64,000 nt of DNA, taken from NCBI GenBank assembly GCA_902599625.1, contig CACKGF010000002.1, positions 1 through 64,000 of the forward strand, written 5' to 3'. Each line of letters begins with the position of its first letter. Within the stretch, counting starts at the first letter, position 1. The translations under genes and the position numbers were made by a program. This DNA comes from an uncultured Pelagibacteraceae bacterium (GTDB lineage: Bacteria > Pseudomonadota > Alphaproteobacteria > Pelagibacterales > Pelagibacteraceae). The notes under the pieces are model-generated. The model was given only the letters and a program-made list of their open reading frames with translations, had not been told where the DNA came from and did no database searches. Positions 19,800-23,770 of this stretch are shown piece by piece.

Positions 19800-20696
19800 T
19801 TATATTGAGAGGTTGTAGGCAAAATTTTTACCCAAGTTTTCTTTTATCTCGTTACAAAATCTTGCAGCATCTGCTCCGTTAATAATTCTGTGATCATAGG
19901 ATAGTGACAGCGGAAGAATTAGTTTGTCACTTTTATCTTTTTGAAATATTTTTCCAATTCCTAATATGGCTATCTCAGGTGGATTTATTATAGGTGTAAA
20001 AAATGTTCCACCTATCCCACCAAGACTAGTGATAGTTATTGAACCACCTTGAAATTCTTTTTTATCAATTTTTAAATTTCTACATTTGTCACTTACTTCT
20101 TTTAATTTTTGCGATAAGTCAGATATTTTAAGTTTGTCGGCATCTCTTATTTTAGGAACCATAAGACCATGTGGAGTATCTACCGCAATACCAATATGGA
20201 AATATTTTTTTAATATAATTTGATAATTTTCTTCATCTTTTATTGATGAATTAAATATAGGATACTTCATCATACTTTTCACCAATGCCTTAATTATAAA
20301 AGCAAGTGGGGTAATTTTCTTTTGCTCACCTGTGTAACCATCCTTTAAATTTTTACGGAAGTTTTCAAGTTCAGTAACATCAGCTTCATCATGATGTGTA
20401 ACATGTGGAATAGTTCTCCAAGACTCCGATAACAACGGTGCTGCAAGCCTTTTTACTCTTGGCATTTCAACAATTTCTATTTCGCCAAATTCAGAGTGAT
20501 CAACTAAGTTTTTTTTAGGTTCTGGTTTTTGGGTTTCTTTTACTTGTATATTCTTTTTAGAATTTTTTATAAAATTTTTAACATCCTCCTCTGTTATTCT
20601 TCCGTTTCTTTCAGACCCTTTTAAGTTAGATATATCGGCCCCTAATTCCCGTGCAAATTTTCTTACTTTTGGAGTAGCGAGTATTCTATTAATCAT
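19800..20696 (-). CDS. aceF: Dihydrolipoamide acetyltransferase (E2) lacking a lipoyl domain
   Basis: E2 core of the pyruvate dehydrogenase complex, 298 residues. It starts directly with the peripheral subunit-binding domain (ATPKVRKFARELGADISNLKGS, then GRITEEDVKNFI, to about residue 45). A short Lys/Pro linker and the trimer-forming acyltransferase domain follow, ending in LSLSYDHRIINGADAARF with catalytic His and Asp. Normal E2 proteins have one to three N-terminal lipoyl domains; none is present, and no lipoyl sequence lies upstream in another frame because the E1 gene ends 2 bases before the ATG. The missing domain is found at the N-terminus of that E1. Confidence 0.92.
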   Translation of the reverse strand: MINRILATPKVRKFARELGADISNLKGSERNGRITEEDVKNFIKNSKKNIQVKETQKPEPKKNLVDHSEFGEIEIVEMPRVKRLAAPLLSESWRTIPHVTHHDEADVTELENFRKNLKDGYTGEQKKITPLAFIIKALVKSMMKYPIFNSSIKDEENYQIILKKYFHIGIAVDTPHGLMVPKIRDADKLKISDLSQKLKEVSDKCRNLKIDKKEFQGGSITITSLGGIGGTFFTPIINPPEIAILGIGKIFQKDKSDKLILPLSLSYDHRIINGADAARFCNEIKENLGKNFAYNLSI

Positions 20697-20698
20697 AA

Positions 20699-23600
20699 TT
20701 ATAATTTTGTAGGTATTGGTTTATTTTTATCAATGTTATATTTCTTAATAGCTTGTTCTGCATATTTTGAGGGGATTAATTGTTCTTTTGCTAAGACACT
20801 TAAAGCATAAGTAACAATATATTTTTTATCAACCTCAAAGAAATTTCTTAGTTTTTCTCTACTGTCACTTCTTCCATATCCATCTGTTCCTAGAGAATAA
20901 AAACTTTTGTTAGTAAAGGGTCTTATTTGATCTGATGTAATTCTCATATAGTCTGATGCAGCCAATATAGGGCCTTCGGCATCTTTTAAACAATTTTCAA
21001 CATATGTTTTTTTTGGTTTTTCATTTGGATTTAAAAGATTAAATCTCTCCACTTCCATGCCATCTTTTCTTAATTCATTAAAACTTGTCACACTCCACAC
21101 ATCACAATCAATTTTAAAATCTTTATCTAATATGTCTGCCGCTTGCATCATTTCTCTTAAAATAGTTCCAGATCCTAATAGTTGAATTTTTGTTTTTTTG
21201 TTTTTTGAAATTTGTTTTATTTTATACATTCCTTTTAAAATTGCTTCTTCAATATTTTTATCTTTTGGTATTGCTGGATGAGGATAATTTTCATTCATTG
21301 TTGTAATATAATAAAAAACATTTTCCTTTTTTTCATACATTCTTCTTAAACCATCTCTAAATATTACAGCCAACTCATAAGCAAAGGTTGGGTCATAGGA
21401 AACACAATTTGGTATTGTGGAAGCAAGTAGATGGCTATGTCCATCTTGATGTTGTAATCCTTCTCCAGCCAAAGTTGTTCTCCCAGATGTAGCGCCTATA
21501 AGAAATCCTCTTGCCTGACTATCACCTGCAGCCCATGCAAAATCACCGACTCTTTGAAAACCAAACATTGAATAGAACAAATATATTGGAATCATTTCTA
21601 TATCATGATTAGTGTATGATGTTCCTGCTGCTATCCAAGATGACATGGAACCAGCCTCCGTTATTCCCTCCTCTAACACCTGTCCTGATTTATCTTCTCT
21701 GTAAGATGAAAGTAGTTTCGAGTCCACAGGCTCATACTTTTGACCCTCATGCGCGTAAATACCAATTTTTTGAAAAAAACCCTCCATACCAAATGTTCTA
21801 GCCTCATCAGGAATTATAGGAACTAATTTAGGTGAAACATTTTTATCTCTTAAGAGGTTTGTTAACATTCTTACCAGTGCCATAGTCGTGGACATTTCTT
21901 TAGTGCCTGTTGATTGTTTCATCACATCGAAGATATCTTTTGGAGGAACTTTAATTGATTTTGCAAAAGATGATCTTTCAGGAATGAAACCTCCAAGCTG
22001 AAGTCTTCTCTCTTTTAAATATTTTATTTCTTGTGAGTCTTCTTTTGGTCTGTAGTACTCAATATTTTTTACCTGCTCGTCAGTTAAAGGAACATCAAAT
22101 CGATCTCTGTAATAAAGTAAATCCTCTACATCCAATTTTTTTTGTTGATGGGTGGTATTAATACTTTCTCCAGATTTACCCATTCCATAACCTTTGATAG
22201 TTTTGGCAATGATCACTGTTGGACTACCTTTATTTTCTACTGCTCTATGATAAGCTGAATACACTTTATGTGGATCATGGCCTCCTCGATTAAGTTTCCA
22301 TATATCTCTATCGGTCAAGCTTGAGACCATTTCTTTTAATTCTTTGTATTTTCCAAAAAATTTGTCTCTTACATATGCGCCACCCTTCGCCTTAAATGCT
22401 TGATACTCACCATCAACAGCTTCATTCATTCTTTTTACTAATAAACCTGTTTTATCTTTTGCTAATAATTGATCCCAATAAGATCCCCATATCACCTTTA
22501 ACACGTTCCAACCGGCTCCTCTAAAAATTCCCTCAAGTTCCTGAATTATCTTTCCATTACCTCTAACGGGTCCATCTAATCTTTGAAGATTGCAGTTAAC
22601 CACAAATATTAGGTTGTCTAATTTTTCTCTGGATGCTAATCCAATTGCACCTAAAGACTCTGGTTCATCCATTTCTCCATCTCCCAAAAAGGCCCACACT
22701 TTTCTATTCTCATCTTTAATTAAACCTCTATTTATTAAATATTTCATAAACCTTGCCTGATAGATCGCTAACATTGGGCCAAGACCCATTGATACAGTTG
22801 GAAACTGCCAGTAGTTTGGCATAAGCCAAGGGTGAGGATAAGAGGATAAACCACCTGGTAGGACCTCCTGTCTAAACGAATCTAATTGTTTCTCAGTCAA
22901 TCTACCCTCTAAAAAAGATCTTGCATAAATTCCAGGAGCACTATGACCTTGGAAATATATTAAATCTCCACCAAACTTATTATTTTTTGCTCTCCAAAAA
23001 TGATTCATACCAACGTCATATAATGTTGCAGCTGAAGCAAAGGTTCCTATGTGACCACCAAGATCAGGGTTTTTTTTATTAGCTCGTACAACCATAGCAG
23101 CTGCATTCCATCTAATTAAAGATCTTATTTTTCTTTCAATGTTTTGATCCCCTGGAGATTTTTTATCCTCTTCAGGAGGAATAGTATTTATGTAAGGTGT
23201 ATTTCGAGATAAGACTAAATCTGAGCCTTCTTTATAAGAATGTTCAATTAATTGTTTTATTAAATATTGAGCTCTTTCTTTACCGTCATTTTGAAGGACT
23301 GCAGATAAAGACTCTAGCCACTCTTTAGTTTCAGTTGGATCTAAATCATTGCTATCAGATATTATTTCAATATTTCTGGTTGGTTTCTTTTTCTCTTGGC
23401 TTATAGTTTGTGTTTCAACAGTTTTTTCTTGTTCTACTTTTTGAGATTTTTCTGCGTCTACAATTATTTTTTCAGTATCTTTAGGAATATCTAAATTTTT
23501 GACTTCTTTTTTTTCAGGTTCAGGTTTTTTTTCAGAAGCAGATTGAATTTCTACCAGTTTATCTCCCTTTGAAACTTTATCACCAACTTTTACTAAAATT

Positions 23601-23770
23601 TTTAATACTTCGCCCTCTTCTGTGCTTGGCACTTCTACGCTTGATTTATCACTTTCAAGTGTAACAATAGAATCATTTTTTTGAATTTTTTGACCCTCTT
23701 TTACAAGAACTTCTATGATTTCTACGTTATCAAAATCTCCTATATCAGGTACTAGAATGTCTTTTTTCAT
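20699..23770 (-). CDS. aceE: Pyruvate dehydrogenase E1, homodimeric AceE type, with N-terminal lipoyl domain
   Basis: Thiamine-diphosphate E1 that decarboxylates pyruvate, 1023 residues against about 887 in E. coli. Residues 1-78 are a complete lipoyl domain with the lipoylation site in LESDKSSVEVPS (Lys42). A charged linker runs to about 143. The rest is collinear with AceE: YFQGHSAPGIYAR, the ThDP/Mg motif GDGEMDEPES...NCNLQRLDGP, DEARTFGMEGFF and GTDGYGRSDSREKLR. This is unlike the PdhA/PdhB E1 of most alphaproteobacteria, so AceE was probably acquired or retained separately (inference). The paired E2 has no lipoyl domain, so the swinging arm appears to have moved to E1. Confidence 0.97.
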   Translation of the reverse strand: MKKDILVPDIGDFDNVEIIEVLVKEGQKIQKNDSIVTLESDKSSVEVPSTEEGEVLKILVKVGDKVSKGDKLVEIQSASEKKPEPEKKEVKNLDIPKDTEKIIVDAEKSQKVEQEKTVETQTISQEKKKPTRNIEIISDSNDLDPTETKEWLESLSAVLQNDGKERAQYLIKQLIEHSYKEGSDLVLSRNTPYINTIPPEEDKKSPGDQNIERKIRSLIRWNAAAMVVRANKKNPDLGGHIGTFASAATLYDVGMNHFWRAKNNKFGGDLIYFQGHSAPGIYARSFLEGRLTEKQLDSFRQEVLPGGLSSYPHPWLMPNYWQFPTVSMGLGPMLAIYQARFMKYLINRGLIKDENRKVWAFLGDGEMDEPESLGAIGLASREKLDNLIFVVNCNLQRLDGPVRGNGKIIQELEGIFRGAGWNVLKVIWGSYWDQLLAKDKTGLLVKRMNEAVDGEYQAFKAKGGAYVRDKFFGKYKELKEMVSSLTDRDIWKLNRGGHDPHKVYSAYHRAVENKGSPTVIIAKTIKGYGMGKSGESINTTHQQKKLDVEDLLYYRDRFDVPLTDEQVKNIEYYRPKEDSQEIKYLKERRLQLGGFIPERSSFAKSIKVPPKDIFDVMKQSTGTKEMSTTMALVRMLTNLLRDKNVSPKLVPIIPDEARTFGMEGFFQKIGIYAHEGQKYEPVDSKLLSSYREDKSGQVLEEGITEAGSMSSWIAAGTSYTNHDIEMIPIYLFYSMFGFQRVGDFAWAAGDSQARGFLIGATSGRTTLAGEGLQHQDGHSHLLASTIPNCVSYDPTFAYELAVIFRDGLRRMYEKKENVFYYITTMNENYPHPAIPKDKNIEEAILKGMYKIKQISKNKKTKIQLLGSGTILREMMQAADILDKDFKIDCDVWSVTSFNELRKDGMEVERFNLLNPNEKPKKTYVENCLKDAEGPILAASDYMRITSDQIRPFTNKSFYSLGTDGYGRSDSREKLRNFFEVDKKYIVTYALSVLAKEQLIPSKYAEQAIKKYNIDKNKPIPTKL

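Follow-up and report, generated by a model that had tools for sequence, protein, structure and literature searches.

Genes and domains at the locus

The window analysed here is a stretch of 64,000 nucleotides from an uncultured Pelagibacteraceae bacterium, which bears adjacent genes for the E1 and E2 components of pyruvate dehydrogenase (PDH; Table 1). The lipoyl arm of this complex is normally carried by E2. In the window, residues 4-75 of the E1 matched the Pfam Biotin_lipoyl domain (66 bits, cut-off 22.1) and residues 140-1021 matched 3-883 of the 885 positions of the aceE profile TIGR00759 (1442 bits, cut-off 859.9). By this full-length match above the curated cut-off, the E1 body is a homodimeric pyruvate dehydrogenase E1 (AceE), and the protein departs from the usual AceE form, which is free of a lipoyl domain (LD), by its PF00364 match. 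Lys42 was placed in the turn between predicted strands 34-39 and 44-48 by structure prediction (mean pLDDT 70). With the LD-bearing PdhB model NF008854 the E1 matched over residues 4-127 only (24.9 bits, cut-off 454), and no E1-beta body was found behind the LD with this profile.

Table 1. Features of the E1 and E2 genes in the window (LD, lipoyl domain).
Feature	Position	Strand	Evidence
LD-aceE: LD plus homodimeric pyruvate dehydrogenase E1, 1023 aa	20699..23770	-	Pfam/TIGR profile matches
Lipoyl domain of E1, residues 4-75	23546..23761	-	PF00364
Lys42 codon, predicted lipoylation site within ESDKSS	23645..23647	-	Sequence; Lys in 131/131 E1 first LDs
Lys/Glu-rich linker of E1, residues 79-139, predicted disordered	23354..23536	-	pLDDT <50 at 79-103 and 105-134
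E1 N-terminal region, residues 140-182, expected dock onto E2 subunit-binding domain	23225..23353	-	Matches E1 peptide chain of PDB 9h1n; role: excerpt of PMC6270654
E1 body, residues 140-1021	20708..23353	-	TIGR00759
aceF-like E2 of 298 aa, free of a lipoyl domain	19800..20696	-	Profile matches
Peripheral subunit-binding domain of E2, residues 5-40	20577..20684	-	PF02817; matches 9h1n chain A, 4qoy chain E
Acetyltransferase domain of E2, residues 72-288, containing DHRIING	19833..20483	-	PF00198

The E2 consisted of the Pfam domains E3_binding (5-40) and 2-oxoacid_dh (72-288), and a Pfam search of its ORF gave no lipoyl match. It therefore has the subunit-binding and acetyltransferase domains (PF02817, PF00198) of AceF (TIGR01348) and none of the one to three N-terminal LDs with which PDH E2, or AceF, is defined (excerpt of PMC8421416). 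Its scores were below the cut-offs of both TIGR01348 (320.9 bits, cut-off 552.1) and the short LD-free E2 model NF008815 of 308 positions (186 bits, cut-off 378). Only two bases lie between the stop codon of E1 and the ATG of E2, and the E2 ORF opens just 8 codons upstream of this ATG, so that no LD is hidden upstream. The first-pass annotation had described an aceE in which an LD with Lys42 is followed by a charged linker and an entire homodimeric E1, next to an E2 that starts at the subunit-binding domain and has no LD; PF00364 and TIGR00759 on the one gene, and the Pfam domains and short upstream ORF of the other, bore out this description.

Both halves of the E1-E2 dock matched one solved entry, 9h1n. 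The window's E1 was 54-56% identical to E. coli E1 structures, and the solved AceE sequences covered only residues 141-1020 of it. Fold searches were informative for the E1 body and E2 core only; among the matches listed there was no LD structure, an absence that carries no information on the LD fold.

Lipoyl domains of E1 and E2 across SAR11

The comparison of AceE domain order across Pelagibacterales, proposed in the first-pass annotation, was carried out on 136 SAR11 (Pelagibacteraceae) genomes, a sample that favours LD-free E2 cases. An E1-borne LD was found in 131 of them. In the other five, the E1 was either cut at the edge of the stretch examined (four genomes) or frameshifted after the LD (G184), where the LD is present in another frame; one of the four cut E1s, re-examined on more sequence, also had the LD. 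The E2 carried two, one or no LDs, and an LD on E2 was kept in 85 of the 136 genomes, a number to be read with the sampling in favour of LD-free cases. The LD lysine was present in all E1 first LDs (131/131), E1 second LDs (5/5) and E2 first LDs (85/85), but the second LD of E2 had it in 0/5 basal SAR11 sequences versus 8/8 outgroup sequences. Outside SAR11, no LD was detected on AceE at 50 loci, one of these cut at its start, nor on 12 long AceE frames at E <1.

The relatives are mostly single-cell or metagenome assemblies, for which an artefact of assembly or gene calling has to be considered. The pair of LD-bearing E1 and LD-free E2 recurs, however, in dozens of separately assembled genomes, named assemblies (L036-L049, L051) included, and the E1 fusion also occurs in single-contig genomes; because of this recurrence we regard the artefact explanation as refuted and its probability as negligible.

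Evolution of the lipoyl domains

The complete loss of LDs on E2 was mapped to eight clades, and a tree in which the 16 LD-free rows sampled from the window's genus were forced into one clade was rejected (p-AU 3.5e-07). In the LD tree, which has 80 columns and many open forks, SAR11 E1 LDs and E2 first LDs formed a cluster distinct from the LDs of outgroups (SH-aLRT 94). The SAR11 E2 first LDs formed nearly one group (2 changes). The E1 first LDs took four changes, two of them forced by starred branches, in part owing to a stray long-branched SucB row inside a starred E1 group; given these forks and changes, that the E1 LD arose only once is no more than a proposal.

Parsimony tallies changes without direction, and in a subset tree the two earliest branches within the window's genus had an LD-free E2, as might be seen if the LD-free E2 were ancestral and LDs had been gained on E2 several times. 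This direction is improbable, since the E2 of the basal genera g2-g4 and of every countable outgroup bears an LD and the SAR11 E2 first LDs form nearly a single group. The best reading of the sequences is that the E1 LD is a copy of an E2 LD, and that the LDs of E2, no longer needed after this copying, disappeared repeatedly. The proposal that the LD had moved from E2 to E1 thus stands as a net shift within the family, supported by the sequences and with intermediates surviving; the course itself would have been copying and then loss, 85 of the 136 E2s still having an LD.

Within the LD-free-E2 clades the E1 LD is, judged from the dN/dS of seven pairs (0.036-0.129; dS >1 in some), under purifying selection. 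In genomes with both LDs, no clearly faster evolution of the E2 LD was seen (mean identity 69% for the E2 LD versus 71% for the E1 LD); faster decay of the E2 LD in these genomes was discarded as an expectation, and redundancy before loss is therefore not visible in them. Gene conversion between the LDs of the two components was also rejected, their identity within a genome (60%) not being above that between genomes (61%). A longer E1 linker as compensation where the E1 LD is the sole arm was a trend only (longer in 6 clades, shorter in 1 and equal in 1; p 0.125).

Other lipoyl domains in the same genomes

In a profile search of the window's own genome (G000), three places matched PF00364 and two E2 catalytic domains were found. 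The LD-type domains outside E1 belonged to SucB (TIGR01347, 519 bits, cut-off 379) and to an AccB-like protein (TIGR00531, 110 bits, just below the cut-off of 115), and no further PDH-type LD was found in this genome. The same three kinds of ORF matched PF00364 in 11 genomes with an LD-free E2, two of which each had one extra partial match (28 positions, about 22 bits). All 10 genomes searched for them had LipB, and in each a single Lpd was above cut-off.

The own genome is 93% complete and, taken alone, may lack a gene, which leaves some room for an unrecognised lipoyl carrier in catalysis, the E1 LD being an unmodified structural or regulatory appendage. Against this, the lipoylation motif is invariant and no other PDH-type LD was found in G017 (99% complete) or in nine further relatives with an LD-free E2, making the appendage very improbable. 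A second PDH E2 with LDs in the same genome, the finding that the first-pass annotation had named as contrary to its reading, was looked for in the own genome and in the LD-free-E2 relatives and was not found.

The LD of SucB, the E2 of 2-oxoglutarate dehydrogenase, could also serve PDH in a mixed complex, leaving the E1 LD accessory. With one Lpd above cut-off per genome both complexes probably share Lpd, and mixed PDH-ODH complexes in which the LDs of a single E2 serve both E1s are described for Corynebacterium glutamicum in an excerpt of PMC7568260. This arrangement is nevertheless unlikely: loss of the E1 LD was not seen, its lysine and purifying selection are maintained, it scored closer to the PDH-type E2 model TIGR01348 (82 bits) than to the sucB model (35 bits), and a separate PDH E2 is retained, docking domain included.

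Comparison with known systems

The E2 of Mycoplasma hyopneumoniae is not known to carry an LD, and the E2s of Neisseria meningitidis, Alcaligenes eutrophus and Zymomonas mobilis keep theirs. In M. hyopneumoniae a peripheral enzyme bears the LD as in SAR11, but the carrier is E3 (PdhD), the subunit reported as lipoylated, at Lys42 by LC-MS/MS (excerpt of PMC7873978). The same excerpt lists E3-linked LDs in N. meningitidis and A. eutrophus, where the LD is likewise fused to a component other than E2, although again to E3; an E3 chain with an LD (PDB 5u25) was among our structure-sequence matches. Escherichia coli AceE/AceF shares the E1 family, the E1-E2 dock and the E2 catalytic domain with the SAR11 pair, and its AceF has three LDs per E2 (excerpt of PMC8421416). 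The actinobacterial E2-E1o fusion resembles SAR11 in that E1 uses LDs on another chain and in having an unusual domain fusion, but there the E2 catalytic domain and not an LD is joined to E1o; no PF00198 was found in a Pfam search of the window's E1 chain.

The NCBI PdhB model NF008854 starts with an LD, and at least three other alphaproteobacteria had an LD-bearing PdhB paired with an LD-free PdhC. Of the short E2s of other alphaproteobacteria, four at a contig end (G750, G768, G774, G775) and one with a match from profile position 250 only (G716) were left out of the count; G335, a candidate judged by match range, has an LD and was rejected. An LD in the E1-beta of Zymomonas mobilis was published in 1999 (FEMS Microbiol. 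Lett.; listed by title among the references of PMC7873978). In these proteins, as in SAR11 AceE, the LD forms the N-terminal part of an E1 chain, but the E1 is heterotetrameric and of a different protein family. The earlier list of LD locations (E2, some E3, with E1-E2 fusions) was thus incomplete, LDs on E1 being known in alphaproteobacteria. LDs on E1-beta and E3 are already published; no mention of an LD-bearing AceE with an LD-free E2 was found in the open-licence PubMed Central literature.

Proposed mechanism and meaning

We consider it highly probable, from the sequences compared, that in this SAR11 bacterium the sole PDH LD found, that on E1, delivers the swinging arm, and that it descends from an ancestral copy of an E2 LD, followed by repeated loss on E2. 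A copy of the first LD of E2 would have joined the start of aceE in the SAR11 ancestor, as the trees suggest; the E2 LDs would then no longer have been essential, with the lysine lost from the inner one and complete loss in about eight lineages. Lipoyl attachment at Lys42, presumably by LipB/LipA, is predicted from the conserved motif and the presence of the LipB gene, and E1-delivered PDH activity is proposed. The E1 LD would be loaded with acetyl in the active site of an E1, swing on its linker of about 60 residues to an E2 active site in the core, where acetyl would be handed to CoA, and return after reoxidation by Lpd docked on other subunit-binding domains.

The N-terminal region of E1 is expected to bind the subunit-binding domain of E2 (excerpt of PMC6270654), so that the arm would stay tethered near the E2 core though not covalently part of E2. 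As this dock region directly follows the linker, the arm would be anchored near the position of an E2-borne one, and the different geometry suggested before is probably overstated. The expected change in stoichiometry agrees with our reading, in which the number of arms would depend on how many E1 are bound and would not be set by E2. The invariant E1 copy and the repeatedly lost E2 copies suggest that tethering the arm to E1 is enough.

The chances are slightly in favour of a wider pattern, in which an arm on E1 is a recurrent and largely one-way route in alphaproteobacteria (AceE in SAR11, PdhB elsewhere), the E1 copy becoming indispensable while the E2 LDs die and are then deleted. If true, arm number would be set by E1 occupancy, breaking the rule of the E2-borne lipoyl arm that underlies substrate-channelling models for 2-oxo acid dehydrogenases. 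SAR11 are among the most abundant marine cells, and their natural series, with LDs on both components and a dead LD, one or none on E2, may show at what point the arm has to be attached and what number of arms the complex requires.

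Domain organisation of E1 and E2

The first-pass annotation had proposed a shift of the lipoyl domain (LD) from the acetyltransferase E2 (AceF-like) to the homodimeric E1 (AceE), with Lys42 as the lipoyl lysine. Domain searches bore out that E1 carries an LD, a linker and a complete E1, and that E2 has no LD (see table). The E1 gene comes first and a gap of 2 bases separates its stop from the E2 start, both genes lying on the minus strand. The predicted E1 model (mean pLDDT 70, 38 sequences) had an LD-like strand layout with Lys42 in a turn; the linker that follows was modelled as disordered, and the E1 body beyond it matched E. 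coli AceE structures (Z ~43, rmsd 5-7 over 778-825 residues); the predicted E2 model aligned with the E2 cores of E. coli and others. In named Pelagibacteraceae (SAR11) assemblies E1 was 98-99% identical to that of the window, and the label SAR11 is applied on that ground.

Features of the E1 and E2 genes in the window and of comparison loci (L-handles, taken from other genomes)
Feature	Location	Strand	Remarks
LD-aceE E1	20699-23770	minus	1023 residues; LD, linker and full AceE
E1 lipoyl domain	residues 4-75 of E1	minus	Pfam
E1 linker	residues 79-139 of E1	minus	Lys/Glu-rich
AceE body	residues 140-1021 of E1	minus	full
E2 without LD	19800-20696	minus	298 residues
E2 subunit-binding domain	residues 5-40 of E2	minus	
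E2 acetyltransferase domain	residues 72-288 of E2	minus	
LD-bearing PdhB, then LD-free PdhC	L273:4836-8318		alphaproteobacterium
LD-bearing PdhB, then LD-free PdhC	L276:1916-5314		alphaproteobacterium
LD-bearing PdhB, then LD-free PdhC	L277:2913-6169		alphaproteobacterium
Second aceE-like gene without LD	L189:5011-7680		SAR11 genome
Second aceE-like gene without LD	L190:4396-7056		SAR11 genome
Second aceE-like gene without LD	L191:4925-7612		SAR11 genome

Lipoyl domains elsewhere in the genome

PF00364 matched three places in the window's genome (1.08 Mb, 93% complete): the window's E1, SucB (444 aa) and an AccB-like protein of 139 aa. There were two E2 catalytic domains, those of the window's E2 and SucB. 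No further PDH lipoyl domain was found in this 93% complete genome by the PF00364 and E2 catalytic-domain searches; the second PDH E2 or free lipoyl protein that the first-pass annotation had suggested seeking did not turn up, the only other carriers being SucB and the AccB-like protein. LipB was present, and the one Lpd (E3) over the cut-off adjoined sucB. In all 11 inventoried genomes that have an LD-free E2, including the window's and one 99% complete (G017), the lipoyl ORFs were E1, a SucB-sized and an AccB-sized one, with one additional partial match near the cut-off in each of two; one of the 11, G121, was called LD-free on E2 ORF length alone.

Distribution in the family

The order sample comprised 297 genomes, 244 of them in the window's family, and E1 and E2 loci were taken from 136 family genomes. 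E2 was LD-free in 51 of the 136 and kept an LD in 85, in a choice skewed to LD-free cases, so that these proportions are no estimates. Comparison of AceE domain order, as the first-pass annotation had advised, showed that the LD on E1 recurs across genera. In the window's genus E1 had one LD with none on E2 in 43 genomes and one on each in 46; a further three with LD-free E2 had a cut E1 and one was frameshifted. The E1/E2 counts in the other genera were two/one (n=2) in g2; one/two (n=2, plus one genome with E1 cut) in g3; one/two (n=1), two/one (n=2) and two/two (n=1) in g4; one/one (n=25) and one/none (n=1) in g5; one/one (n=5) and one/none (n=2) in g6; and one/none (n=1) in g7. The LD of G184 lay one frame off its E1, the shift following an A-run in the linker, and in G252, one of the four cut-E1 cases, the LD was present on a longer stretch.

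By ORF length, E2 was LD-free in at least 52 of the 244 family genomes, lengths being tabulated for part of the family. An E2 match of PDH strength was absent in 20 family genomes and fragmentary in two more, all 22 outside the 136. Several genomes of the window's genus (G040, G076 and G105 among them), of which some are 95-97% complete, had neither AceE nor E2 of PDH strength, which may reflect either incompleteness or real loss. We take G011, G013, G026, G157, G007 and G009 to be HTCC1062, HTCC7211, HIMB5, IMCC9063, HIMB114 and LSUCC0530; if this is right, these cultured strains carry LDs on both E1 and E2, and the LD-free E2 comes, to our knowledge, so far from uncultured cells only.

Tandem, degenerate and lost domains

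In basal SAR11 the second LD of E2 had the lipoyl lysine replaced by E or N in five of five loci (L180, L181, L182, L183, L188); the lysine was kept in the second LDs of outgroup E2s (8/8) and in every E1 LD and every first E2 LD counted. Tandem LDs on E1 in g2 and g4 (L182, L184, L185, L186, L187) had it in both copies. LD-free E2s formed eight clades on the tree of E1 and E2 bodies (FastTree, 144 rows), and an IQ-TREE subset of 42 rows likewise gave eight changes, with the window's clade split into two successive branches. Monophyly of the LD-free rows from the window's genus, 16 in number, was rejected on that subset (p-AU 3.5e-07). All 29 LD-free E2 frames inspected began at or shortly upstream of the subunit-binding domain, and an LD match was absent in every one.

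AceE outside SAR11

Among the best 80 of 120 matches to the window's E1 in named loci, 30 (L036-L065) were SAR11 or close kin, three of them titled only alphaproteobacterium; 28 of these 30 had the LD and the other two were cut at the contig start. The LD was found on none of the 50 non-SAR11 loci (one cut at its start) among those 80, nor on any of 12 long-frame non-SAR11 AceEs read. In a scan of 398 genomes of the phylum, AceE matches reaching the LD occurred only in the window's genome and one family member, among some 150 matches listed.

A study of SAR11 IIIa reports aceEF and multiple aceE copies, and "lipoyl" is absent from its main text (PMC10030771). Second aceE-like genes occurred in three SAR11 genomes; for the one in L191 the score against TIGR03186, an exception model, slightly exceeded that against the aceE model and stayed under the TIGR03186 cut-off. 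In the sister family f2 the best matches had only lipoyl-domain strength (E ~1e-8 to 1e-4), with no match to the AceE body, and AceE may therefore have entered the SAR11 line after its split from f2.

E1-borne arms in other systems

E2 is described with one to three LDs (PMC8421416). Published exceptions have the LD on E3 (Alcaligenes eutrophus, Neisseria meningitidis and Mycoplasma hyopneumoniae) or, in Zymomonas, on E1, where the text gives E1-alpha but the cited title E1-beta (PMC7873978). Among the matches listed in a class-wide scan for PDH-type E2, covering 123 genomes, were at least three alphaproteobacteria (G795, G746, G739) in which pdhA and a pdhB with an LD accompany a contig-internal pdhC of 288-302 aa that lacks one; pdhA was assigned by family search in G795 only. 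Judged by ORF length, the other PF00364 ORFs of G795 and G746 are probably SucB and AccB, plus a carboxylase in G795; G746 had an additional match under the cut-off, and G739 had more PF00364 places than the other two. The E1-only lipoyl arm is therefore not unique to SAR11: these heterotetrameric complexes (L273, L276, L277) probably carry the arm on E1 only as well, there on PdhB.

Proposed working of the arm

In E. coli the E2 subunit-binding domain is bound by the N-terminal region of E1 (PMC6270654). Both docking partners are conserved in the window: residues 140-182 of its E1 matched the E1 peptide of PDB 9h1n and residues 5-51 of its E2 the E2 domain of that entry. The LD is thus tethered to the expected E1-E2 docking point by the linker of ~60 residues, and the arm would probably serve E1, the E2 core and E3 much like an E2-borne arm. 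For the E1 copy to be the one kept, tethering at the reductive-acetylation step would suffice, as would, alternatively, a bias towards deletion of the redundant copy. The number of arms would be set by E1.
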